Shown in pieces: positions 4,288 to 24,274 of a stretch of DNA of 64,000 nt. Under the pieces are notes generated by a model that was not told the DNA's origin, ran no database searches, and saw nothing but the letters and a program-made list of their open reading frames with translations. Numbering within the stretch: the stretch's first letter is position 1; each line of letters opens with the position of its first letter. The position numbers and the translations under genes were made by a program. The DNA comes from an uncultured Blautia sp. (GTDB taxonomy: Bacteria > Bacillota > Clostridia > Lachnospirales > Lachnospiraceae): assembly GCF_937880195.1 (NCBI RefSeq), contig NZ_CALFLA010000004.1, positions 21,134 to 85,133 on the forward strand, written 5' to 3'.

Positions 4288-5556
4288 ATGAAAGTAATTA
4301 CAGCAGTTTTGATCGGGGCAGGCTTAAGAGGCGGCTGGGTATATGCAGACTATGCCAGAAATCACCCGGAAGATATGAAGATCGTAGCCGTAGCCGAGCC
4401 GGATGAAAAAAGAAGAAAACTGATAGCGTCTGTTCACGGACTGCCGGAAGACAAGTGCTATAAGGATTATAAGGAATTACTGGCAGAAGAAAAGATGGCG
4501 GACTGCGCTCTTATCTGCACCCAGGACACTATGCATTATGAACCGGTCATAAAAGCAATGGAAAAGGGCTATCATGTACTTTGCGAAAAACCCATGTCTC
4601 CGGACGCTTCGGAGATTGTGACAATGGGAAAAATGGCGGAAAAATACGACAGGATATTGATGATCTGTCATGTACTCCGCTACTCGGCCTTCTTTTCCAG
4701 AATTAAGAAACTTATTGATCAGGGAAGAATTGGGAAACTGATCAGTATTCAGCATATTGAAGAAGTGGGCTACTGGCATCACGCGCACAGCTTTGTCCGG
4801 GGAAACTGGAGAAGAAGCGAAGAAACCAGTCCCATGATCCTTCAGAAATGCTGTCATGATATGGATATTCTTTTATGGCTGGTGGGAAGTCCCTGCACAA
4901 AAGTAAGCTCCTTTGGAAATCTTACTTATTTCAGAGAAGAAAACGCGCCGGAGGGCGGTCCGGAATATTGTCTGGACGGCTGTCCGAAGAGAGATACCTG
5001 CGCCTTTTATGCGCCTAAATTTTATTTTGAGCATCCAAAGGCAGAATCAGACGGACTTATCCATGCAGTATCTACAGATACAGACAGGGAGGCAGTTCTT
5101 AAAGAACTGAAAACAGGCCCTTACGGAAGATGCGTGTTCCGCTGCGACAATACGGTGGTGGATCATCAGGTGGTAAATCTGGAATTTGAAAACCAGGTGA
5201 CAGTAAACATGACTATGTGCGCGTTTACAGAACAGTGCGCAAGACAGATCCATATCATGGGAACAGGCGGAGAGCTTCGGGGAGATATGGAAGAAGGGAA
5301 AATTGAAATATCAGATTTTGCAACAGGAGAGAAGGAAACCATCCGGCTTTATACGCCGCCTACAGGGCACAGCGGAAGCGATCAGAACATGATGAAGGAT
5401 TTCGTGCATTATCTTAGAGAGGACAGCGCCCGTATACGTTCTGCCGCATCGGTGTCTGTGGACAGCCATTTGATTGCTCTTGCGGCAGAAAAATCCAGAG
5501 TTGAAGGAGAAACTGTGGATTTCAAAAAATTCCGTCAGGAGATTGAGGAAAGATAA
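4288..5556 (+). CDS. Gfo/Idh/MocA family NAD(P)-dependent oxidoreductase
   Basis: A cytosolic dehydrogenase of 422 residues, larger than the usual 330-380. The N-terminal Rossmann fold begins at VLIGAGLRG (residues 8-16). The family's EKP motif, which holds the catalytic lysine, is at residues 100-102 (CEKPMS), and the substrate-side histidine region is CCHDMDILLW. Around residues 226-240 there is an inserted cysteine cluster (YCLDGCPKRDTC) with a further pair in GRCVFRCDN, which could bind a metal. Members oxidise or reduce sugars, inositols or sugar acids. Its place directly behind the sugar permeases suggests it acts on the imported compound. The family is certain, the substrate unknown. 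Confidence 0.9.
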   Translation: MKVITAVLIGAGLRGGWVYADYARNHPEDMKIVAVAEPDEKRRKLIASVHGLPEDKCYKDYKELLAEEKMADCALICTQDTMHYEPVIKAMEKGYHVLCEKPMSPDASEIVTMGKMAEKYDRILMICHVLRYSAFFSRIKKLIDQGRIGKLISIQHIEEVGYWHHAHSFVRGNWRRSEETSPMILQKCCHDMDILLWLVGSPCTKVSSFGNLTYFREENAPEGGPEYCLDGCPKRDTCAFYAPKFYFEHPKAESDGLIHAVSTDTDREAVLKELKTGPYGRCVFRCDNTVVDHQVVNLEFENQVTVNMTMCAFTEQCARQIHIMGTGGELRGDMEEGKIEISDFATGEKETIRLYTPPTGHSGSDQNMMKDFVHYLREDSARIRSAASVSVDSHLIALAAEKSRVEGETVDFKKFRQEIEER

Positions 5557-12527: not shown

Positions 12528-13073
12528 ATGGACATCAGAACAGAAAAAACAGAAAGGGCTATCAAAAACGCTTTTTTGGAGCTGCGGGCAAAGAAACCGC
12601 TGGAAAAGATAACAGTCAGGGAGCTTTGCGCCCTTGCCTGCATTAACAAATCTACTTTTTACGGACATTATCAGGATATTTATGCTCTTTCTGAATTTAT
12701 GGAGGCAGAAACTGTTACTTCTGTAATAAAAACTATTTCCGCCCGCCAGGAAGATCCCTTCCGGGAACCGGAGATTTTTACCAGAAATCTGTACGTGGCT
12801 CTTCTTTCCAACAATTCCATGATCAGCATTCTTTTTTCAGGGAGAGAAAAGGCGCGCCTGGGCGACTGTCTGGAGGCAGAATTACAAAAACTGATATGCG
12901 CCGGACGCCCGGAATACAGAGAAGACACAGAAAGGAGTATTCTTTTGTCTTTCTGTATCCAGGGCGCTTTTCACGCGTATCTGAATTACAAAGATCGGGA
13001 TCCGGACGCTGTGATCCGAGTCAGTGAAAAAGTGGTAAAGGAACTCAGCACTCTGTATTTTCGGAAAGAGTGA
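12528..13073 (+). CDS. TetR/AcrR family transcriptional regulator
   Basis: A 181-residue regulator. The start at 12528 is chosen over the upstream TTG (12495), because GGGAGGAG stands right before this ATG. The N-terminal TetR helix-turn-helix is clear: TERAIKNAFLEL, then KITVRELCALACINKSTFYGHY, with the typical STFY/HY end of the recognition helix, and KDIYAL-like QDIYALSEF after it. The C-terminal ligand domain is not distinctive. It is divergent from glgB (about 145 bp between starts) and tail-to-tail with the pilus regulator, overlapping it by 29 bp. Possible targets are its own gene or glgB; nothing in the sequence decides this. Confidence 0.88.
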   Translation: MDIRTEKTERAIKNAFLELRAKKPLEKITVRELCALACINKSTFYGHYQDIYALSEFMEAETVTSVIKTISARQEDPFREPEIFTRNLYVALLSNNSMISILFSGREKARLGDCLEAELQKLICAGRPEYREDTERSILLSFCIQGAFHAYLNYKDRDPDAVIRVSEKVVKELSTLYFRKE

Positions 13074-14568
13074 GAAGACGGTAAGATTCGTTAATCTCAT
13101 ATTGAAGGACAGCCATGCGGACAGCTTCGATATCGTCGGGAGCCATTTCCGACGTAATGGTGAGAAAGACGTTACTGTCGGAAACGCCTAATTTACGGAT
13201 CATCCGGTCAAATTTTTTGTAAACAAGGAAAAGGCTGTTTTTATAGCTTTGCAGAACAGAAAGAGGCTCCGCGTTTAGCTGAAAGGAAACGATCGTTACC
13301 CGTATAGGAGAAAAAAGCCTGGAAAAAACAAGGCGGGCGGATTCAATCTCAGCTACGATATCCGAAACGATCACCAAAGTCACAGGCGAAATAAGCCTGG
13401 ACAGAACGGTTCCAAGCTGCGCGGTGAGATACAGGGTATGCCCCGGATCCATTTCATACTGGATTTTGTTTGCGGCCTTCCAGTCCTTTAAGAGAAGGGT
13501 CACGCTGTCGTTAAGAGAAAAAAGGAGCTGGCTGTTGGAGCCGTGAAGATAAAAGTGTTTGTCGGGAATCAGGCATTGCAGCTCCAGCAGGCTCTTTTTG
13601 TAAAAGTACACCAGCGTCGCTTTCAGTTCTCTGCCCCGGGTGATTTCGTTTCCGAACTTCTGACTGAGACGGTTCAGAAGATCTTTAAAGGCAGGCGCGG
13701 AAAGAACGATCTGATGAAGCTGTTCAATATCCTTCCGCGTCCATTTGTCCGATAAAACACAGTTATTGGTGCAGCAGTAGCACAGTAAAACATAATCATA
13801 ATCCGTTTCAGTAAAATCATCCGTCAGCTCTTTTTCTATTGTTTCTTTAAAACACTGTTTTATCTTTTTATAAAAAAACATTTCTTTCAGCTTATCCATA
13901 TCCCCGGAACCAGGAAGAACGGGAGGAAATTTTTTACGTTTCCATGTAAGGATCAGCAGGCATTCAAAAAAACTGTATTCTTCTGTGGAATACTCCAGAA
14001 AATCCCTGTCGATCACTGAATTGGAGGACAGGACAAACGTCCTGGCAAGAGAGACAGAAGCCTGGTCTATACCGCAGCAATCAAAGCCGTATTTGTAATA
14101 CAAAAGAGCGATCAGAAAACGGATCCGGTATTCTTCTCCGGAAACTCTGTTGCGCTGTATAAAAAGCCCCACGCTTCGCAGATAATCCGCGCAGGACTGG
14201 CGGACGCGGTATGCGGCGGACTTACTGAGAAAAGATTCGTCAATAAATACAGAAAAAGGAAGCCCTTCCGTATTGGAAGTCAAAAATGACAGACAGCGGA
14301 GAATATTGGAATCTCTGTAAAGGGCATGAAGAAGTTCGAGAAAAGAAACGTTCTCATATACAGAAAAAAAGGCGTGGGAATCCGATACCCGGATTTCGGC
14401 AAGCCCCCAGAGGTCGTTTTTTAACTCATTAAGAAGAGTGAAGGTATTGGTCTGTGTCGTTTGGTTTATCTGGTTCAGTTCTTTTATGGAAACTTCCATC
14501 CGGGTTCTTAAAAGATAAAAAATTCTCAGTTTATTTTGGATGGAAGGTTCCAGATATTTGTCAAGCAT
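13045..14568 (-). CDS. Mga/RofA-type transcriptional regulator of the pilus island
   Basis: A 507-residue stand-alone regulator of the Mga/RofA class. A winged HTH of the Mga type is readable at residues 111-150: LSKSAAYRVRQSCADYL, then GEEYRIRFLIALLYYKYG, the family's conserved 'S...YR...L..YL...G.E..IR' pattern. An earlier N-terminal HTH lies at about 25-60, and the long C-terminal part probably holds PRD-like and EIIB-like folds. It is divergent from the pilus operon with 188 bp between starts, exactly as rofA/nra stand to cpa in streptococci, so it most likely activates or represses the pili. There is no ordinary Shine-Dalgarno; nine G residues occupy its place. A TATAAT-like -10 lies on this strand at 14616-14611. 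Confidence 0.8.
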   Translation of the reverse strand: MLDKYLEPSIQNKLRIFYLLRTRMEVSIKELNQINQTTQTNTFTLLNELKNDLWGLAEIRVSDSHAFFSVYENVSFLELLHALYRDSNILRCLSFLTSNTEGLPFSVFIDESFLSKSAAYRVRQSCADYLRSVGLFIQRNRVSGEEYRIRFLIALLYYKYGFDCCGIDQASVSLARTFVLSSNSVIDRDFLEYSTEEYSFFECLLILTWKRKKFPPVLPGSGDMDKLKEMFFYKKIKQCFKETIEKELTDDFTETDYDYVLLCYCCTNNCVLSDKWTRKDIEQLHQIVLSAPAFKDLLNRLSQKFGNEITRGRELKATLVYFYKKSLLELQCLIPDKHFYLHGSNSQLLFSLNDSVTLLLKDWKAANKIQYEMDPGHTLYLTAQLGTVLSRLISPVTLVIVSDIVAEIESARLVFSRLFSPIRVTIVSFQLNAEPLSVLQSYKNSLFLVYKKFDRMIRKLGVSDSNVFLTITSEMAPDDIEAVRMAVLQYEINESYRLLTLSENTEC

Positions 14569-14756: not shown

Positions 14757-17147
14757 ATGCACAGAAAAAGAAAAAAACAGCGCTGCCTGTACTCGGCGCT
14801 ATTGGCTTTCTTACTTCTTTTTACCAGTATCGGTTCTGTTTTTGCAGCGGAAAACCCTGCTCCTGAAGAGAGTTTTCTGGAAGAGGAGGTTTTTCAGTCG
14901 GAGCCGGAAGAGCCTGTTGAAGAAGAACCCCTTTTTGAGGAAGAACCTATTGAAGGGGATACGTCCGGTGAGGAAGAACCGTTTCTGGAGGAAGAGCCTT
15001 CCGGAGACGCCCCCCTGTTTGAAGAACTTCCTCCGGCTGAGGAAGAACCTCCGGTTGCGCCGGAAGAAGAGGAAAGTACAGAAGATTTGTCTGACGGAAG
15101 CGCAGAACTGTTTGCAGATGGGGGGAATGGAGCGCATATTAAGTACGAGAATGGGTTTCATTATATATGGGATGAGACATATCAGAGAGATATTCTTCTT
15201 TATTGTATGAATCGTGATCGGCTGTGGCCTCATGTTGAGGAGGGACAAGACGGTCACGATACCGTTCCGGGGTATGAGGAAGGCTACTTGACGGAAGAGA
15301 ATTTTGAAAATAAAGCAGAGTATGACGAGTGTATGCGGCGGCTGTCGAAGATCCTGTATGCCGGATATCCGTATAACGGAGAACGCCTCTATAAAATAGT
15401 GGATAATTCTGAAGGTCATAAGCCTACGGTGGAAGAATTTAATAAAATGTTGGTTCCGCTTCCGATTTTGCAGACGGCATTTCCATATCTGGGACATCAT
15501 GATTTTAAATATTCAGACTGGAATATAGATGAAAATAAACAAAATAAAGAACATCTGGACTTATTGATGAAATTTTGGGGAGATGTGGCGAAATTATATA
15601 ATGGAGGAACCACTGAAAATGGACTTCACTATGCGGATATTAAAGCAATGCCTTTTCATCATGCTGTTGAATGTATGCTTATGGCAATGACTAATAACAC
15701 AGATCCGCTTGAGTATTATAAAGATAATTTTAGTAAAGCTTATTTTGTAACAAAGAGAGAGGCCTATGATGCTACACAGATGGCAGTATGGGCGTTGATG
15801 CATGAATATGGGATAGAGGATAATAAAGAGTTTAATGAACATGGAATGATTGGACATGTTCTTGCGCAATCTCTGTATACTTATTCTGAACGAGGCGGTC
15901 TTTTGCAATATAAACCTACTCCTGAACAGATAAACATAGAGGGCGATCTTACTTTTCGGTATAATAACAAAGACGGATATTATCACAGCGGAGTGCTGAA
16001 AATTACAGAACCTCCTGAGTTTCACGGACTTTATAACCTTATCCTTCCACAGGGGGTCAGAGCGCTATGCGATAATCTGACGTATGTATATGGAGACGAG
16101 GATTATGAACTGGTATCGGAAACCATGCCTCCTGAAGGATCTCAGTTTAGTATAGACGCACATTTTGTATGGATGAAGGAATTTAAGCAGTATCACCCTG
16201 CTGAAGAGTTGACAGGACAAAATGGTAAGAAATACCAGAATATGGTAGGCGCGGTGATAAATACAGAACATATTACAAAAAGCGCGCCTTTTAAGAGAGG
16301 GCAGGAGGGAAGCCTGAAGATTACCAAGGAAAAGGTAATTGAAAACAATCCGAACTCGGATCGTGAATTTGAGTTTTTTGTGACTTTTCTTGAAAGAACA
16401 GATATTAACGGGCAATATGGTGATCTTATATTTAAGAATGGCACTTCTGAGACATTTGCGCTAAAAGAAGGAGAGTCAAAAACAGTGTCTCATATTCCGC
16501 CGGGAACAAAATATGAGGTAATAGAATCTGACAGCGGAAGTTACGTCATAACCGGAACCGGCACAACCGGAACGATTCAGGACAGTATTACTGCGGAAGC
16601 AAAATTTACCAATATCAGACGTCCTCAGCTTACTCTTAGCAAGGAAGTAACAGGAGAAGCCGGAAATAAAAAAGAAACGTTTACATTTGAAATTACCCTG
16701 AAGGACAAGAATAGTCAGCCGGTTACGGGAACGTTCCAATATCAGGGAGGCGTGAAACCAGGTTTTGAAAATCAGGGCGTTACGGCTCCGAAGAATGGTT
16801 GGCTGGAATTTAAAAATGGAAAAGCCACAGTCAGTCTTTCCCATGGACAGCAGATCACTGTTTTGGATCTTCCTGACAAAAGCGCCTATACCATACAGGA
16901 AACAGGCGCAGACACCTATATAACTACATATAACGATAAACAGGGGCCTGCCGCAGGTACTTTGGACTCCCAGGAAAAGAAACATGTGACGGAGACAGTC
17001 CATGTAGTTAATAATAAGGAATTTGCACCGGATACAGGTTTTAAGGACGCTAACGGTAAAGGAACTGCCGCAGCTCTGGCTGTTGCGCTGTCAGGCGCTC
17101 TGCTGCTGGCAGGAGAAATTCTTCTGAAAAAAAGGATAAAGAAATGA
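14757..17147 (+). CDS. Pilus tip adhesin with thioester domain (Cpa-like)
   Basis: A wall-anchored surface protein of 796 residues. The signal peptide runs to about residue 30 (SVFA before AENP). Residues 35-112 are a Glu/Pro-rich low-complexity segment. A TQXA thioester domain follows: Cys150 (LLYC) and Gln341 (ATQMAVW) are the pair that forms the internal thioester used to bind host surfaces covalently. Two Ig-like isopeptide domains occupy about 545-740, each with a Lys, a Glu (YEVIES; YTIQET) and an Asn (FTN; VVNN). The C-terminus has an APDTG sorting motif (757-761), a membrane helix and a KKRIKK tail. It corresponds to streptococcal Cpa/Spy0125 at the pilus tip and is the first gene of the pilus operon. 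Confidence 0.88.
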   Translation: MHRKRKKQRCLYSALLAFLLLFTSIGSVFAAENPAPEESFLEEEVFQSEPEEPVEEEPLFEEEPIEGDTSGEEEPFLEEEPSGDAPLFEELPPAEEEPPVAPEEEESTEDLSDGSAELFADGGNGAHIKYENGFHYIWDETYQRDILLYCMNRDRLWPHVEEGQDGHDTVPGYEEGYLTEENFENKAEYDECMRRLSKILYAGYPYNGERLYKIVDNSEGHKPTVEEFNKMLVPLPILQTAFPYLGHHDFKYSDWNIDENKQNKEHLDLLMKFWGDVAKLYNGGTTENGLHYADIKAMPFHHAVECMLMAMTNNTDPLEYYKDNFSKAYFVTKREAYDATQMAVWALMHEYGIEDNKEFNEHGMIGHVLAQSLYTYSERGGLLQYKPTPEQINIEGDLTFRYNNKDGYYHSGVLKITEPPEFHGLYNLILPQGVRALCDNLTYVYGDEDYELVSETMPPEGSQFSIDAHFVWMKEFKQYHPAEELTGQNGKKYQNMVGAVINTEHITKSAPFKRGQEGSLKITKEKVIENNPNSDREFEFFVTFLERTDINGQYGDLIFKNGTSETFALKEGESKTVSHIPPGTKYEVIESDSGSYVITGTGTTGTIQDSITAEAKFTNIRRPQLTLSKEVTGEAGNKKETFTFEITLKDKNSQPVTGTFQYQGGVKPGFENQGVTAPKNGWLEFKNGKATVSLSHGQQITVLDLPDKSAYTIQETGADTYITTYNDKQGPAAGTLDSQEKKHVTETVHVVNNKEFAPDTGFKDANGKGTAAALAVALSGALLLAGEILLKKRIKK

Positions 17148-17656
17148 CAGAAAACAAAAAAGACAGCTCCGTAAAGTATGACCTGATTTCCCTGCTGATG
17201 AAAGTTATGATATTTGCCGCGCTTCTGGCAGTTACCTTTTTCTTCATATTCGGGATTCACCGATGCGACGATAACATGATGTCTCCGGCATTTAAAGACG
17301 GCGATCTTGCAGTTTACTACAGACTGCAAAAAGAATTTCAGCCGTCGGACGTTGTGGTTATTGAGAAAGACGGAGAAACACAGGTTCGCAGGATTGTGGC
17401 AAAGTCCGGAGACAGGGTGGAGATCACTGCGGAAGGACTGAAAATCAACGGATATTTTCAGCAGGAAGCAGGAATTTATACAGAGACGCTGCCTTATACA
17501 GAGGGAATTTCTTTTCCTTTGACATTGGGGGAAGAGGAATACTTTGTGCTGGGAGACAACCGCTTCGGCGCAAAAGACAGCCGGATTTACGGCGCGGTAA
17601 AAAAAGAAGAAATAAAAGGAACCATCATTACTCTTCTCAGACACAGAGGATTTTAG
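17144..17656 (+). CDS. SipA/LepA-like pseudo-signal peptidase of the pilus locus
   Basis: A 170-residue membrane protein with the type I signal peptidase fold: one helix at about 17-37, then the family boxes. It has lost both catalytic residues. The serine of the S-M-x-P box is replaced by Met45 (MMSP, Pro48 conserved), and the lysine of the V-K-R box by Arg82 (QVRRIVAKSGD). The structural boxes remain (LGDNR...DSR.YG). In streptococcal FCT pilus islands SipA occupies the same place, also lacks the dyad, and is needed for pilus assembly, so a chaperone-like role is the best inference. The ATGA overlap with the tip gene means coupled translation. Confidence 0.85.
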   Translation: MTENKKDSSVKYDLISLLMKVMIFAALLAVTFFFIFGIHRCDDNMMSPAFKDGDLAVYYRLQKEFQPSDVVVIEKDGETQVRRIVAKSGDRVEITAEGLKINGYFQQEAGIYTETLPYTEGISFPLTLGEEEYFVLGDNRFGAKDSRIYGAVKKEEIKGTIITLLRHRGF

Positions 17657-17710
17657 AATAGCACTGGCTTTGCTAGATGATATAAAAGTAAAAAGAAAGA
17701 AGGAAAACAA

Positions 17711-18823
17711 ATGTTAAAAAAAGTAAGAAAAGGAATCAGCGGTTTGTTTCTGGCAGGGGTATTATTTCTAAACGCAGGAACTACAGCGCTGGCGGCAGAT
17801 ATCACGCCTACGCCTGTACCGACTATAACGAGTAACTTGAAAGTTATGAAATATTTTGAAATGGCAGAGGGACTGGAAACGCCGGCAGAGACGTTTACCT
17901 TTGAAATTGAATCTAATTCAAATAATCCGAAAAATACGCCGCTTCCTGCTGTTGATGATGCTGTTTATACTAAAGATGATAGCGCAGATGTTGTAAACGG
18001 CAAAAGAACAATAAAAAAAGAGGCGACTATCACATTACCGAAAGTAACTCAGTTCCCCCACGCGGGAGAGTATCTGTACACGTTGACAGAAGTGACGCCT
18101 GTACAGAAGAATGAAAATATTACATATTCCAATGAATCTTACACGCTTCGCGTTCGCGTAAAAAATGCGGCTACAGGCAACGGACTTGATATTGCGTCTG
18201 TGACAGCCAACAAAAACCCGGATGGAGATACCGCAAACAATCAAAATAAGGTTGGCGAAATTTCTTTTACTAACACCTATGCAAAAAATGCCGGTCTTAC
18301 CATTGAGAAAAAGACAACAGGCGATTATGCAGACAGAACAAAAAAATTTAAATTTACCATTACCTTTACAAAAAAATCCGAGACTGATGCGACGAAATAT
18401 ACAGGAAAGATAGGAAATACCGAGGTACAATGTACGGCGGGCGAGAAAGCAGAATTTTATCTCGGAAATGGAGACAAGTTGATCTTTAACGCTGTTCCGG
18501 TAGGAACAAGATATGTGGTTGAGGAAACCGCCGAACCAGGCGACGGATATACGCCTGTTTCAGTAACAGTAACAGAAAACGGAACAGAAACTAAAAAAAC
18601 AAACAACAATGAAAAATCAGGCATTTCTTCTGAGCCGCAAAACGGAACGGATTCTCTGGTAGGAGAAAAAACAAACAAAGTTGTTTTTGAAAACCACTAT
18701 GATGATATTCCGATTACAGGTATTATTATGAACAACCTTCCATTTATTCTTTTGATCGGCGTTGCTGTTCTTGCTTTTGGCGCACTTGTTATTTTGAAAA
18801 AGCGCAGCGCCTCTAAGAGATAG
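17711..18823 (+). CDS. Major pilin (FctA/Spy0128-like) with LPXTG-type anchor
   Basis: The backbone pilin, 370 residues. The signal peptide is cut after TTALA (about residue 28). Domain 1 (about 42-192) is a Spy0128-type pilin domain with an isopeptide triad: Lys47 (LKVMK), Glu127 (YTLTE) and Asn188 (FTNTY). Domain 2 (about 195-330) is a second Ig-like domain with Lys200/201, Glu271/272 and Asn328. The sorting signal is IPITG (333-337), a hydrophobic helix and a basic tail. The sortase gene starts on the last base of the stop codon. Gene order and domain plan match S. pyogenes fctA; the lysine used for polymer linkage cannot be identified by eye. Confidence 0.88.
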   Translation: MLKKVRKGISGLFLAGVLFLNAGTTALAADITPTPVPTITSNLKVMKYFEMAEGLETPAETFTFEIESNSNNPKNTPLPAVDDAVYTKDDSADVVNGKRTIKKEATITLPKVTQFPHAGEYLYTLTEVTPVQKNENITYSNESYTLRVRVKNAATGNGLDIASVTANKNPDGDTANNQNKVGEISFTNTYAKNAGLTIEKKTTGDYADRTKKFKFTITFTKKSETDATKYTGKIGNTEVQCTAGEKAEFYLGNGDKLIFNAVPVGTRYVVEETAEPGDGYTPVSVTVTENGTETKKTNNNEKSGISSEPQNGTDSLVGEKTNKVVFENHYDDIPITGIIMNNLPFILLIGVAVLAFGALVILKKRSASKR

Positions 18824-19584
18824 TGTTGAGCAAGATACTCCAGATAGCAGATAAAGCGGTAAACCTGCTGATGATACTGTGTTTTTTGCCAATCCTCTGC
18901 TACGGCATTTATGTTTTATGGGATTCGCAGCACATCAGTCAGCAGGCAGACGCTTCGCTTTATGAAACGTATCGGCCAACCGGGGACGATCATGTATCTT
19001 TTGCAGAACTTCAGAAACAGAATCCGGAAGTATTCGGATGGCTGACAGTGGAAGACACTCATATAAATTATCCCCTGGTACAGGCTGAAAATAATTCCAA
19101 ATATGTAAACACAGATGTGATGGGAGAATTTTCTCTGTCAGGAAGTCTTTTTCTTGACTGCCGTAATCATAAAGATTTTTCGGATTTTAACAATATTATT
19201 TACGGACATCATATGGAAAAGGACGCCATGTTCGGAGAACTGGAATCCTATGAACAGGCGTCCTTTTTTGAGAAACATTTAAAAGGCTCGCTGTTTTATG
19301 AAAACGCATGGCATGATATAGAATTTTTTGCCTTTTTAAAAGCAGACGCATATGATACGGTACTTTATAATGTCTCTTTAACAAACGAAGATATGCCGGC
19401 TTATCTGGATGCAGTCAGAGAACGTGCAGTTCATTACAGAGATCTGCCTTTTGGTACGGAAGAACAGTTGATAGCCTTATCCACCTGTACCTCTGAAAGC
19501 ACCAACGGCAGACACCTTTTAATAGGAAGGATTTTGGAACAGAGTAAACACAAACAGGGAGAACTTCAATATGAAAAAGAGTAG
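18823..19584 (+). CDS. Class B sortase (pilus polymerase)
   Basis: A 253-residue transpeptidase with an N-terminal membrane helix (about 12-33). Catalytic residues are visible: His129 (IIYGHHM), Cys222 (LSTCTSES) and Arg230 (TNGRHLLIGR). The long region between His and Cys and the Cys context TCTSE...RH mark class B rather than the class C sortases of most pili. This is the same choice as in streptococcal FCT islands, where the class B enzyme SrtC (Spy0129) polymerises the Spy0128 pilin. Translation starts at GTG 18823, sharing one base with the pilin stop, with only a weak AAGAGA site, so coupling is likely. The enzyme faces outward at the membrane. Confidence 0.92.
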   Translation: MLSKILQIADKAVNLLMILCFLPILCYGIYVLWDSQHISQQADASLYETYRPTGDDHVSFAELQKQNPEVFGWLTVEDTHINYPLVQAENNSKYVNTDVMGEFSLSGSLFLDCRNHKDFSDFNNIIYGHHMEKDAMFGELESYEQASFFEKHLKGSLFYENAWHDIEFFAFLKADAYDTVLYNVSLTNEDMPAYLDAVRERAVHYRDLPFGTEEQLIALSTCTSESTNGRHLLIGRILEQSKHKQGELQYEKE

Positions 19585-20236
19585 ACGGATATTCGGGATC
19601 ATGGTTCTGTTCTTTTGTTTCCTGAGTTTTCCTGTAAATCATGTTTTTGCGGCGTCGGGTATGGCTGAAGTGTCGCTGAGGGTAACCCAGAATTTTGCAG
19701 TAAAAAATCCTGCAAAAAAAATGGATTTTACAGGGAATTATGAATTTAGCGCTTTGGACAAAGGCGCGCCTTTGCCGGAGAAAGCAGAAAATGGAAAATA
19801 TTCCTTTTCCCTTGAGGGGGAAAAGGCGGAGCTTCCCATTCATTTACAGTATTCCCACGCAGGCGTTTATCAGTATCGGCTGATACAGACAACCGAAGAT
19901 AAAGAAGGGTATCAGTATGACAAAAATTCTTATCAGATCACTGTTTATGTAAAAAACAGTGATAAGGGAGAGTTACATACGCAGGTAGTGGCAGAAAAAG
20001 AAAACGGAAGGAAATCCGGCAGGCTGGAATTTCAAAATTTTTATCAGGGAAAAGAACCGGACGGGTCTGATCCCAACGGCTCCAACGGATCCGCAGGATA
20101 CGGCGGATCGTCGGCAAATCCGGTAAAAACCGGAGATTCCACAAATGTTACGCCGTATATTTTAACCGCTGCAGCGGCGTTATTGCTGGCGGCAGTGATT
20201 GTTTTTGTAAAAAAATTCAACCGGAAAAAAGAATAG
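19571..20236 (+). CDS. Minor/basal pilin (FctB-like)
   Basis: A 221-residue wall-anchored pilin overlapping the sortase end by 14 bp. The signal peptide ends near HVFA (residue 27). One Spy0128-type domain spans about 30-160 (GVYQYRL, SYQITVYV, LEFQNFY), followed by a Gly/Ser/Asn linker. The sorting motif is PVKTG (184-188), with a membrane helix and basic tail. Aligned to the major pilin, the isopeptide lysine and glutamate are both glutamine (Gln40, Gln106), while Asn156 is kept, so the internal isopeptide bond should be absent. Its position after the sortase matches streptococcal FctB, which anchors the pilus to the wall. Confidence 0.82.
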   Translation: MKKSRRIFGIMVLFFCFLSFPVNHVFAASGMAEVSLRVTQNFAVKNPAKKMDFTGNYEFSALDKGAPLPEKAENGKYSFSLEGEKAELPIHLQYSHAGVYQYRLIQTTEDKEGYQYDKNSYQITVYVKNSDKGELHTQVVAEKENGRKSGRLEFQNFYQGKEPDGSDPNGSNGSAGYGGSSANPVKTGDSTNVTPYILTAAAALLLAAVIVFVKKFNRKKE

Positions 20237-20490: not shown

Positions 20491-20509
20491 AGTTGCTCTC
20501 AGGAGCTTA

Positions 20510-20576
20510 TCGACTTATACCCCTTTCTGTGATATGATAAAACCATTATCATACATTACAGAAAGGGGTATTTTCT
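20510..20576 (+). promoter_or_regulatory. Promoter within a long interrupted palindrome covering the ribosome-binding site
   Basis: ATACCCCTTTCTGT (20517-20530) is the exact inverse of 20558-20571, and inside it TATGATAA (20533-20540) pairs with TTATCATA (20546-20553). The 3' arm contains the only Shine-Dalgarno (GAAAGGGG, 20561-20568) of the next gene and is followed by TTTTC. A promoter fits inside: TCGACT (20510-20515), 17 bp, TATGAT (20533-20538), start near 20545. Upstream read-through RNA would form the full hairpin, acting as terminator and hiding the site; RNA from this promoter would not. Confidence 0.7.
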
Positions 20577-23336
20577 ATGGGAAATACATCCGAAAATCAA
20601 AAGAAACAATCGGATAAAACTTCATTAAAACATATATGCGCAGGGATTCTCGCCCATGTAGACGCAGGCAAAACAACCCTTTCCGAGGGTCTTCTTTATC
20701 TTTGCGGAGAAATAAGAAAGCTGGGAAGGGTAGATCATGGGGACGCGTTTCTGGATACTTATGAGCTGGAAAAAGAAAGAGGAATTACTATTTTTTCCAA
20801 ACAGGCAGTTTTAAAAACAGAAAATATGGAGATCACCCTTCTTGATACGCCGGGACATGTGGATTTCTCGGCAGAGATGGAACGGACGCTGCAGGTTCTG
20901 GATTATGCTATATTGGTCATCAATGGAATGGACGGAGTGCAGAGCCATACCATGACGCTTTGGAGACTGCTGGAAAGATATGAGATCCCTGTTTTTATTT
21001 TTATAAATAAAATGGATCAGCAGGGGACAGACAGAGAAGCCATTTTGGAAGAATTAAAAAAGAGGCTGAATGAGAACTGTCTGGACTTTGGACATATGGA
21101 TGGAGAAGGGACGGAAAAAGAGGAGCTTATGGAAAGTCTTGCCGTATGCGAGGAGGGACTTTTGGAAAACTATCTGGAAACAGGAGAGGTGGAGCATGGG
21201 GAGATCTGCCGTCTGATCGCAGAGCGAAAAGTCTTTCCCTGCTGGTTTGGTTCCGCTTTAAAAATGCAGGGGGTACAGGAGCTGTTAAGGGCGCTGGAAA
21301 ATTATACAGTACAAAAATCATACCCAGAGGAGTTTGGCGCAAAGGTTTTTAAGATTGCCCGTGATCCTTCTGGGAACCGTCTGACGTATTTGAAGGTGAC
21401 AGGAGGAAACCTGAAAGTAAAAACACTTCTGGGAGAAGAAAAGATCGATCAGCTTCGTATATATTCAGGCGCAAAATATGAGACTGCAGCACAGATAGAG
21501 GCAGGAGGAGTCTGCGCCGTTACCGGGCTGTCCAAAACATATCCGGGACAGGGGCTTGGGATAGAAACAGAATCCAAAATGCCTGTACTGGAGCCGGTTT
21601 TGAACTATCAGATTATTTTTCCAAAGGACTGCGATCCCCACAGGATGCTCCAGAATTTAAAAGAGCTGGAGGAGGAAGAACCCCAGCTTCATATCATATG
21701 GGACAAAAGTCTTGGCGAAGTTCACGCCCAGCTTATGGGGGAGGTACAGACCGAAATCCTGAAAACAATGATCTGGGACCGTTTTCATGTGACTGTGGAA
21801 TTTGGATCGGGAAATATTGTTTATAAAGAGACTGTTGCAGAGCCAGTAGAGGGCGTGGGACATTTTGAACCTCTGCGTCATTATGCAGAGGTACATCTTC
21901 TCATAGAGCCGGGAGAACCGGGAAGCGGATGTCAGTTTTTTACTGCATGCAGCGAAGACGTTCTTGCACGGAACTGGCAAAGACTGATCCTTACTCATTT
22001 GGAAGAAAGAGAACATCCAGGCGTACTTACCGGATCTGTTCTAACAGACGTACAGATCACTCTTCTTACAGGAAAGGCCCACACCAAGCACACAGAGGGC
22101 GGCGATTTTCGGCAGGCTACCTACAGGGCGGTGCGCCAGGGATTAAAAAAAGCCAAAAATATACTTTTGGAGCCTTATTATGAATTTAGACTGGAGGTTC
22201 CGTCAGAAATGATCGGACGGGCCATGTCGGATATTCAGCAGATGCAGGGAAGTTTTGAGCCGCCGGAAACAGATGGGGAGACTTCGGTCCTTACCGGAAC
22301 AGCGGCAGTTTCCAAGATGCGTGATTATCAGAAACAGGTGGTTTCTTATACAAGCGGACGGGGCAGACTTTTTTGCAGTCTGAAAGGCTACGCTCCCTGT
22401 AAAAATCAGGAGGCAGTGGTACAGGCAGTGGGTTATGATTCAGAGAGGGATCTGGAAAATCCTACAGGATCTGTATTTTGCGCTCATGGAGCAGGCTTTG
22501 TGGTGCCGTGGGATCAGGTGGAAGAATATATGCATCTGGACAGCGGAATTGATGTGAAAAAGATTTCGGAAAATGGGGAAACCTGGTATGAGTTTCAGGA
22601 GGAAGAAGAGAACAGCGGGCAGATACAGCCTTCAAAAAAGATTGGAAAGGGATATTCCTACAGCGGAAGCTATGAGGATGAAATGGAACTGCAGGCAATC
22701 TTTGAAAGAACCTTCGGCCCGGTAAAAAGAGACAGGGCCATGTATGCTTCCAGGACCACAGTGGGAAGCCAGAGGGAAACAGTTCGTTATCGTCCCGGCA
22801 AACCCAAAAAAGAGGAGTATCTCCTGGTAGACGGATACAATATTGTTTTTGCCTGGGAGGAGCTTAGAGAGCTTGCCAAAGAAAATATCCATGCAGCCTG
22901 CGACAAGCTGATGGATATTTTAAGCGATTATCAGGGCTACAGAGGATGTACGCTGATTCTTGTATTCGACGCTTATAAAGTAGAAGGACACAGAGAGGAA
23001 GTAATTCCCTATCATAATATTTATGTGGTATATACCCGGGAGGCAGAGACGGCAGACCAGTATATTGAAAAAACAGTTCACAGGATCGGCCGCCAGTATC
23101 AGGTAACAGTTGCCACTTCTGACGGGCTGGAGCAAATGATCATCCTGGGCCAGGGAGCTCAGAGACTTTCCGCTATTGGTCTTAAAAAAGAGATCGAGGA
23201 TGCTAAGAAAAATGGAAAACAGGACTGGAGAGAACGGCGGCAGAGCAGCAAAACATACCTGTTTGATAATGTTTCAGAAGAGCTTTCGGCGCATCTGGAA
23301 AAGATCAGAACAGGAAAAGACGAGGAACTTCTGTGA
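20577..23336 (+). CDS. TetM-like ribosomal GTPase fused to a Rae1/YacP NYN nuclease domain
   Basis: A 919-residue two-part protein. Residues 1 to about 690 form an EF-G/TetM-type translational GTPase: G1 AHVDAGKT (26-33), RGITIF (69-73), DTPGH (90-94), NKMD (144-147), then the domains II-V usual for ribosomal protection proteins, which enter the A site. Residues about 690-740 are a linker. Residues about 746-919 are a complete YacP/Rae1-type NYN domain with its acidic motifs: LLVDGYN, LVFDAY, ETADQYIE, VATSD and GQGA.R.SA. Rae1 of Bacillus is a ribosome-bound endonuclease cutting mRNA in the A site. The fusion suggests GTPase-directed mRNA cleavage or ribosome rescue; true tetracycline resistance is untested. 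Confidence 0.88.
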   Translation: MGNTSENQKKQSDKTSLKHICAGILAHVDAGKTTLSEGLLYLCGEIRKLGRVDHGDAFLDTYELEKERGITIFSKQAVLKTENMEITLLDTPGHVDFSAEMERTLQVLDYAILVINGMDGVQSHTMTLWRLLERYEIPVFIFINKMDQQGTDREAILEELKKRLNENCLDFGHMDGEGTEKEELMESLAVCEEGLLENYLETGEVEHGEICRLIAERKVFPCWFGSALKMQGVQELLRALENYTVQKSYPEEFGAKVFKIARDPSGNRLTYLKVTGGNLKVKTLLGEEKIDQLRIYSGAKYETAAQIEAGGVCAVTGLSKTYPGQGLGIETESKMPVLEPVLNYQIIFPKDCDPHRMLQNLKELEEEEPQLHIIWDKSLGEVHAQLMGEVQTEILKTMIWDRFHVTVEFGSGNIVYKETVAEPVEGVGHFEPLRHYAEVHLLIEPGEPGSGCQFFTACSEDVLARNWQRLILTHLEEREHPGVLTGSVLTDVQITLLTGKAHTKHTEGGDFRQATYRAVRQGLKKAKNILLEPYYEFRLEVPSEMIGRAMSDIQQMQGSFEPPETDGETSVLTGTAAVSKMRDYQKQVVSYTSGRGRLFCSLKGYAPCKNQEAVVQAVGYDSERDLENPTGSVFCAHGAGFVVPWDQVEEYMHLDSGIDVKKISENGETWYEFQEEEENSGQIQPSKKIGKGYSYSGSYEDEMELQAIFERTFGPVKRDRAMYASRTTVGSQRETVRYRPGKPKKEEYLLVDGYNIVFAWEELRELAKENIHAACDKLMDILSDYQGYRGCTLILVFDAYKVEGHREEVIPYHNIYVVYTREAETADQYIEKTVHRIGRQYQVTVATSDGLEQMIILGQGAQRLSAIGLKKEIEDAKKNGKQDWRERRQSSKTYLFDNVSEELSAHLEKIRTGKDEELL

Positions 23337-23365: not shown

Positions 23366-24274
23366 ATGATCTGTACAGTAACCTTTAATCCATCTCTGGA
23401 CTATATCGTAGACGTAGAAAATTTCAGGCTTGGTCTGACTAACCGTACCAGCGCAGAACAAATACTTCCAGGGGGAAAGGGGATCAATGTATCTACGGTT
23501 CTTATGAACCTGGGAATCCCCAGTACAGCTCTTGGGTTTATGGGCGGTTTTACCGGAGAGGAGCTGGTCAAAAGACTGAAAGAAATGGGCGTAGAATCTG
23601 ACTTTATACAGATTCCAGATGGGCTGACCAGAATCAACGTAAAACTGAAATCCATTGACGGCACAGAAATTAACGGAGCCGGACCCATGATCGGCAGGGA
23701 ACAGACAGAGGAGCTTATGAAAAAGCTGGATGGCCTTAAGAAGGGAGACATACTGTTTCTGGCAGGAAGTATTCCATCCGGTATGCCGGAGGATATGTAT
23801 GAAAGGATCATGAAGCGCCTGGATGGAAAAGGGATCATAACAGTGGTGGACGCTTCCAGAGATCTTCTTGTAAATGTTTTAAAATATCATCCCTTTCTTA
23901 TTAAGCCAAATAACCATGAGCTTGGAGAGATTTTTGGAGTGGAACTGAACACAAGAGAAGATGTGATTCCCTATGGAAAGAAGCTGCAGGAAATGGGAGC
24001 AGAGAACGTTTTGATCTCCATGGCAGGAGAAGGCGCGGTTCTTATTGCGCAAAACGGAGAAATCTATAAAAAGCCTGCTCCAGAGGGCAGGCTTGTAAAC
24101 GCAGTAGGCGCCGGAGATTCCATGGCGGCCGGATTTATGGCAGGATGGATGGAAAAAAAAGATTATTGCCATGCTTTTTATATGGGAATCGCGGCAGGAA
24201 GCGCCAGCGCGTTTTCTGAAAACCTGGCCACAGGAGAAGAGATCAAGGCAGTTTATTGTCAGGTGGCGCCATAA
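23366..24274 (+). CDS. PfkB family sugar kinase, 1-phosphofructokinase-like
   Basis: A 302-residue sugar-phosphate kinase. Start 23366 is preferred over the upstream in-frame ATG at 23333, because AAAGGAGA lies just ahead and homologues begin M-I-x-T-V-T-x-N-P. N-terminal TFNPSLDYIV and LPGGKGINVS (substrate lid and first PfkB signature) and C-terminal NAVGAGDSMAAGF (second signature with catalytic Asp) are typical of FruK/LacC-type enzymes, which phosphorylate fructose 1-phosphate or tagatose 6-phosphate. No phosphotransferase genes adjoin, so the substrate is open. The 3' end overlaps the convergent LysR gene by 16 bp. Confidence 0.87.
   Translation: MICTVTFNPSLDYIVDVENFRLGLTNRTSAEQILPGGKGINVSTVLMNLGIPSTALGFMGGFTGEELVKRLKEMGVESDFIQIPDGLTRINVKLKSIDGTEINGAGPMIGREQTEELMKKLDGLKKGDILFLAGSIPSGMPEDMYERIMKRLDGKGIITVVDASRDLLVNVLKYHPFLIKPNNHELGEIFGVELNTREDVIPYGKKLQEMGAENVLISMAGEGAVLIAQNGEIYKKPAPEGRLVNAVGAGDSMAAGFMAGWMEKKDYCHAFYMGIAAGSASAFSENLATGEEIKAVYCQVAP

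Follow-up and report, generated by a model that had tools for sequence, protein, structure and literature searches.

The window, a 64,000-nucleotide stretch of the genome of an uncultured Blautia sp., contains a gene in which an EF-G/Tet-type translational GTPase is fused to a complete Rae1-type nuclease of the NYN_YacP family. We propose, at a probability of about 0.55, that the product is an EF-G-like factor which delivers its tethered nuclease to stalled ribosomes and whose GTPase belongs to a subfamily of its own, widespread in one class of Firmicutes. The proposal builds on the architecture of the protein, the conserved active-site residues of both halves, the single clade formed by the fused GTPases and the loss of the separate yacP gene. 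The fusion occurs in about one third of the genomes sampled from one class (128/393). If the proposal is true, the protein shows how such bacteria clear stalled ribosomes and provides Rae1, a ribosome-associated nuclease, with a GTPase partner; by what means Rae1 reaches the ribosomal A site would then become a testable question.

A single-frame fusion of two conserved halves

The fusion gene is a single open frame with an ATG start (Table 1). An earlier note, made from the sequence of the window, had described a TetM-like GTPase fused to a full Rae1/YacP nuclease and had suggested a domain search. Pfam matched both parts within the one frame, 20577-23336, with EF-G/Tet-type domains over residues 18-611 and a full NYN_YacP domain over residues 749-911. 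The G motifs and acidic motifs that the note had listed are indeed present, but the GTPase domains end at about residue 611 and not at about 690, as it had supposed. The nuclease match scored 175.7 bits against a gathering cut-off of 24.6 and covered positions 1-165 of the 166 in the profile. A sequence search of the PDB with the fusion protein returned EF-G, TetO and TetM, as well as YacP (5mq8/5mq9) over residues 748-913. Both PF00009 and PF05991 were present in all 120 homologues listed, out of at least 7987 scored, and at least 80 fusion loci were found in genome contigs of Lachnospiraceae, Oscillospiraceae, Anaerovorax, Fusibacter, a Peptostreptococcaceae metagenome-assembled genome, Holdemania and others.

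Conservation was assessed in an alignment of 78 fusion proteins, comprising that of the window and those of 77 of the 80 fetched loci; L027, L054 and L073 were dropped because they had no single frame passing the filter. These proteins diverge widely, with identities to the window protein as low as 49% among 40 aligned. The G-domain motifs are AHVDAGKT (G1), DTPGHVDF (G3) and NKMD (G4), with residues H27, D29, K32, D90, G93, K145 and D147 found in 78/78 proteins and His94 of G3 in 77/78. In the nuclease half, D752, D798, D827 and D849, which we take to be the catalytic residues of the NYN site, were also present in 78/78. Both halves look active, as judged from the alignment, because the G-motif residues, His94 and the nuclease aspartates vary little or not at all. 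The domain IV tip loop follows the pattern G-R-A-H-x-K-H-T-E-G-G-D-F-R, in which H502 was conserved in 76/78 proteins, K504 and H505 in 77/78 each, and T506 and G508 in 78/78.

Behind domain V lies a mini-domain that is rich in cysteine and histidine (C/H), with C608, C635, W645 and H653 each found in 77/78 proteins and H637 in 75/78. Its C/H residues are candidates for a possible metal site. The mini-domain was predicted to be folded, with block mean predicted local distance difference test (pLDDT) values of 84-93 in the full model and 70-87 when modelled alone. A Foldseek search with residues 529-656 revealed no separate mini-domain fold, the 50 best matches listed being EF-G/EF-2-type proteins (81-99 of 128 columns) and BipA, which is not evidence against one. 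For the full model, the 50 best VIA-align matches listed covered the GTPase domains only and did not include Rae1 structures, which the sequence search does find. The tether that follows is 61-145 amino acids long in the aligned proteins (median 80.5), and model confidence over it is mostly very low. A loose form of its short helix pattern occurred in 39/78 tethers, compared with 0.55 in shuffles, and a stricter pattern (EL..IF) in 46/78. By eye, this helix (residues 700-713) may resemble the one at the C-terminus of Tet(M).

Distribution of the fusion

To survey the fusion across genomes, as the earlier note had suggested, we used a sample of 393 genomes from the class of Anaerovorax odorimutans (G010; NCBI class Clostridia). 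YacP frames of at least 780 amino acids were classed as fused and those of 100-230 amino acids as stand-alone. NYN_YacP was found over the cut-off in 249 genomes, of which 128 had the fused form and 113 the stand-alone form, with one genome (G323) counted within each; nine in-between genomes fell in neither class. No YacP match at E 0.001 was obtained in 143/393 genomes. For the 250 genomes with matches, places were listed for 150 and the other 100 were searched again, one of which (G300) was below the cut-off. Throughout, sub-cut-off matches were left out, i.e., those of G300, single short ones in G013, G159, G213, G247 and G409, and those of G446, G458 and G495. Among the in-between genomes, the fusion is split over two frames in G084, G229 and G274, and the YacP of G325 appears to be of the stand-alone kind, extended by a long tail. 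Separately, genome G033 gave two YacP matches, each in a long frame.

In all 128 fused genomes, the GTPase match lay 198-483 bases upstream of the YacP match on the same contig and strand and in the same reading frame. The frameshift or assembly error that the earlier note had considered is therefore not what joined the two genes; recurrence of the fusion in 128/393 genomes excludes chance or assembly error. In a sample of 120 genomes from the class of Holdemania, YacP was over the cut-off in 14, in frames of at least 831 amino acids in 13 and of 615 amino acids in one, and no stand-alone YacP over the cut-off was found. Twelve of the 13 long-frame genes had a matched GTPase; the thirteenth is that of Holdemania, whose GTPase was seen in a separate search.

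Loss of the stand-alone yacP gene

The earlier note had raised the possibility that yacP was absorbed into the GTPase gene. Consistent with this, all YacP matches over the cut-off were fused, and none stand-alone, in 40/40 genomes of fetched fusion loci, two of which (G010 and G026) are also in the 393-genome sample. In the latter, fused and stand-alone YacP occurred together in 1/393 genomes against 36.8 expected, a comparison in which kinship is not corrected for.

The usual site of stand-alone yacP is between rlmB and sigH. Relatives of these two genes recurred in 11/12 and 12/12 loci, respectively, including the remnant locus L088, where the flanking genes are RlmB and SigH by scores over both NCBIfam cut-offs. 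Using sigH as query in 30 fused genomes, we obtained a match in 28, with rlmB adjoining in 21. Intact yacP occupied the rlmB-sigH gap in only one of these 21 genomes, G323, which also has the fusion. Remnants of yacP were detected in four, as two colinear pieces each in G409 and G062 (3e-14 in both) and as one piece each in G136 (2e-9) and G383 (5e-7). A fifth remnant, in G175, was marginal (2e-4), and no yacP trace was found in the gap of the other 15/21. In the 20 fused genomes without intact yacP, the longest open frame between rlmB and sigH was at most 85 amino acids. The remnant in G409 includes an 81-amino-acid piece just over the cut-off. The loci noted for decayed remnants between rlmB and sigH in fusion-carrying genomes are L088 (about 5210-5445), L167, L159 and L158.

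Loss of stand-alone yacP appears to be under way or complete in genomes with the fusion, which would be expected had the fusion taken on the work of the nuclease. That the joined form stands in place of a separate nuclease gene in many relatives suggests that the two parts work together.

An unfused form of the GTPase

The GTPase half was used to search six genomes with stand-alone yacP only and seven fusion genomes. Three of the former (G202, G253 and G185) encode an unfused protein in a frame of 654-729 amino acids with 41-46% identity, whereas a Tet(M) reached 30% and two other relatives of the Tet type had 33-35%. With one unfused protein as query (E 1e-110), the unfused GTPase was found in 27/393 genomes, of which 22 had stand-alone YacP, five had no YacP match and none had the fusion. 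For these counts, the Fisher p was 5e-9 over all genomes and 5e-5 over the 256 outside the fused and in-between classes, kinship being ignored in both. The existence of genomes with separate genes suggests that the two were already partners before they became fused.

The tip pattern KHTxGGDFR was found in 26/27 unfused proteins, L108 being the exception, and the C/H core of the mini-domain also in 26/27, the exception here being L119, the most divergent. In the 26 with the core, the C-terminus lies 2-13 residues past its last histidine. Since unfused GTPases possess the mini-domain and end just past it, this mini-domain is part of the GTPase, and the nuclease was joined on after it. In the divergent L119 protein (G415), loss of the C/H core is accompanied by the tip sequence EHTHGGDFR. 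Two unfused copies, L100 and L101, were observed in one genome, G145, and at L094 (G253:C2) an efflux-pump-like gene adjoins a Tet-type gene in broken frames.

Phylogeny of the two halves

Trees were built from 40 of the 78 fused proteins, every unfused locus but L103 (27 of 28) and every stand-alone locus but L148 (31 of 32); L093 and L132 denote one gene. In the GTPase tree (74 rows), the 40 fused rows formed one clade with a Shimodaira-Hasegawa-like approximate likelihood ratio test (SH-aLRT) value of 100, nested within paraphyletic unfused rows, with EF-G and Tet proteins outside. This tree came from a quick search that left 25 of 71 inner branches open, and the program flagged long branches (L119 and L126), the joining of EF-G with Tet as long branches, and an unusual composition in 29 rows. 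All fused rows of the NYN tree, for which the bootstrap had not settled, fell in one group (98/99) that also contains one stand-alone row, L146. This stand-alone YacP, whose source genome, G248, carries an unfused GTPase (L118), is possibly nearest to the pre-fusion state. The order of events appears to be one fusion, then DISPLACEMENT of the old stand-alone gene; the fusion may also have spread horizontally.

Proposed mechanism and alternatives

Three reports describe Rae1 as an endonuclease acting on A-site mRNA (PMC12320835, PMC6613710, PMC10100781), the first two for B. subtilis, in which the motility defect of an efp mutant is suppressed by loss of rae1 or of the ABC-F gene ydiF (PMC6613710). 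For the fusion protein, we infer ribosome binding, an order of events, an mRNA substrate and a biological trigger. In its GTP form, the GTPase would bind a stalled ribosome or one whose A site is blocked, in the manner of EF-G and Tet factors, and would place the conserved KHTEGGDFR tip of its domain IV in the decoding centre. Domain IV and the Rae1 domain would compete for the A site and would probably act in turn. The tip would clear or probe the A site and be withdrawn by GTP hydrolysis, whereupon the tethered nuclease, at high local concentration, could enter the emptied site and cut the mRNA; with the mRNA shortened, ribosome rescue would proceed and the message would decay. Since both halves can hardly share the A site, a long tether makes sense if the GTPase comes first and the nuclease follows after withdrawal. 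In related genomes, the same task would fall to the unfused GTPase and stand-alone YacP/Rae1 as a pair. More tentatively, and at less than an even chance, these proteins may represent a GTPase-delivered, nuclease-based ribosome quality-control pathway in bacteria.

Several points weigh against delivery of the nuclease by the GTPase. If both halves need the A site, they are unable to act at once, and the sequential model is a workaround. Neither half strictly requires the other: YacP is unmatched in 5/27 unfused-GTPase genomes, and the genomes in which stand-alone YacP is accompanied by no GTPase match at E 1e-110 number 90, a figure that may be too high because this threshold missed 19 of the 128 fused genes. 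The fusion genes have no conserved neighbours (651 flanking open reading frames of 78 loci, the best family being present in 10 loci) and so provide no hint of a pathway. The rarity of genomes with both forms of YacP may also owe something to kinship. Finally, L146 was placed among the fused NYN domains in the tree and in each of the 200 bootstrap trees, such that the fused rows need two label changes and the NYN tree alone shows no single clean fusion event; L146 may be the nearest relative from before the fusion, the product of a later split or a misplaced row.

The same 90 genomes, together with the length of the tether (61-145 amino acids) and its mostly very low model confidence, would fit a tether of convenience, whereby Rae1 works as usual and the GTPase only keeps it on ribosomes, without a GTP-driven handover. 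We consider this unlikely, given that the GTPase motifs (His94 in 77/78) and the domain IV tip are near-invariant despite identities down to 49%, as for an active factor. Slightly less likely is a role in ribosome biogenesis or in rRNA or tRNA processing, with the GTPase checking subunits and the NYN domain trimming RNA. In most of the loci examined, stand-alone yacP does adjoin the rRNA methyltransferase gene rlmB, but later work on Rae1 points to mRNA in the A site (PMC12320835, PMC6613710, PMC10100781), and the 143/393 genomes without a YacP match at E 0.001 indicate that YacP performs no core maturation step in the class.

A ribosomal protection protein against tetracycline-type antibiotics, with an added RNase, is the least probable of these alternatives. 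The best NCBIfam match of the fusion protein is tet_protect and the best PDB matches of its profile are TetO and TetM, and one report proposes a possible new mode of resistance through RNase activity (Atkinson 2015, PMC4342817). The tet_protect score, however, is 424.4 bits, below the curated cut-off of 775, and four unfused relatives score 408-460 bits; a value of about 424 says little, because five true EF-Gs reach 384-409. In Tet(M), Pro509 has been described in the tetracycline site, contacting C1054 (PMC8161019). In a HMMER alignment, Lys504 lies opposite this proline, and lysine was found at that column in 77/78 fusion proteins. Moreover, fusion genome G032 also encodes a Tet(M) over the tet_protect cut-off (L126). 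Of the "TetM-like" label in the earlier note, the EF-G/Tet-type domain set stands, whereas its functional sense is not supported, the score being 424 vs 775 bits and the tip proline absent. By sequence, the fusion GTPase is not a tetracycline-protection protein, and such protection is a less likely use of the fusion than delivery of the nuclease to stalled ribosomes. The fusion protein is easily mistaken for a tetracycline resistance factor by family score, and Tet-like matches of about 850-1000 amino acids are, alone, no evidence of drug resistance.

Leader and surroundings of the fusion gene

Table 1. Positions of the fusion gene, its domains and its leader elements in the window.
Feature	Position	Strand	Residues	Basis or remark
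Fusion gene: EF-G/Tet-type translational GTPase, mini-domain, tether and NYN_YacP (Rae1-type) nuclease	20577..23336	+	919 amino acids
G domain (GTP_EFTU)	20628..21308	+	18-244	Pfam, E 1e-52
EF-G domain III (EFG_III)	21591..21806	+	339-410	Pfam
EF-G domain IV (EFG_IV)	21813..22157	+	413-527	Pfam
Domain IV tip loop	22071..22112	+	499-512	Alignment; near-invariant K504-H505-T506-E507-G508-G509-D510-F511-R512
EF-G domain V (EFG_C)	22164..22409	+	530-611	Pfam
C/H-rich mini-domain	22386..22544	+	604-656	Alignment conservation; without Pfam match
Tether	22545..22814	+	about 657-746	Mostly pLDDT <50
Short tether helix, ELxxIFxRTYG-like	22674..22715	+	700-713	pLDDT low, about 58
NYN_YacP (Rae1-type) nuclease domain	22821..23309	+	749-911	Pfam, E 1e-51
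Promoter-like TCGACT-17-TATGAT, extended -10	20510..20538	+		Overlaps leader hairpin
24-pair leader hairpin	20517..20571 (55 bases)	+		Contains promoter-like -10 and Shine-Dalgarno-like AAAGGGG of fusion gene

The fusion gene is preceded by a leader hairpin that overlaps a promoter-like element. Folding of 20505-20600 gave -34 kcal/mol (z -7.5), and 0/200 shuffles were as low. Promoter-like matches in the leader region were no commoner than in shuffles (4 vs 6.2). The 29-base promoter-like string recurred upstream of the fusion gene in 4/77 loci (L005, L032, L010 and L004), with 21-29 letters matching, and in none of the shuffles. By eye on the sequence alignment, the hairpin layout, i.e., TCGAC ahead of different, self-matching stems, was seen in L005, L032, L062, L004 and L035. 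Because leader z was below -3 in 8/77 loci (median -0.74; L004, -2.7), the hairpin leader is limited to some lineages. A transcript from the gene's own promoter would start inside the hairpin and leave the ribosome-binding site open, and RNA reading through from upstream would fold the site shut; the hairpin may in this way shield the fusion gene from read-through transcription.

Upstream of the leader, 14757-20236 holds a pilus-like cluster encoding a TED/DUF7601 surface protein, an S26 signal peptidase, two FctA/Spy0128-like isopeptide proteins and a sortase; a divergent regulator with an Mga helix-turn-helix domain adjoins it (13045-14568, minus strand). Downstream, a PfkB-family sugar kinase gene (23366-24274) has its likely ATG 29 bases past the fusion stop and is not a conserved neighbour in other loci.

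Comparison with known systems

The fusion architecture is already published: in ten species of Clostridiales, "Tet proteins" were described in 2015 as carrying a YacP domain (Atkinson, PMC4342817). That was the only report of the fusion found in a literature search that did not include the key Rae1 papers, and no experiment on it was found. The same search, again without the key Rae1 papers, gave no mention of an unfused partner family or of the mini-domain, nor of yacP displacement or the leader. A PMC-listed study, reportedly on Rae1 distribution to go by its title, may mention the fusion, and we claim no priority over it.

The Tet-YacP fusions of 2015 share the domain combination and the bacterial group of the window protein and are very probably the same family; they differ in being filed under Tet and linked to drug resistance, and the available part of that report does not mention the unfused partner family, the mini-domain or the loss of yacP (Atkinson 2015, PMC4342817). 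Rae1/YacP of B. subtilis (PDB 5mq8 and 5mq9) has the NYN_YacP domain along its full length, like the nuclease half here, but is a separate protein (PDB chain of 181 amino acids), whereas that of the window is fused and lies away from the rlmB-sigH site. EF-G differs in that the fusion protein scores below the EF-G cut-off (TIGR00484, 313.5 bits vs 659.4), and each of the three fusion genomes tested (G010, G020 and G323) was confirmed to encode an EF-G of its own that exceeds the cut-off. At the ribosomal A site, Tet-type factors overlap with EF-G (PMC8161019). Tet(M) and Tet(O) (PDB 3j9y and 4v6v), the best PDB matches of the profile, possess the same EF-G-like domains G, III, IV and V, but identity to a Tet(M) is 30%, and the fusion has a different tip loop, an extra mini-domain and a nuclease.

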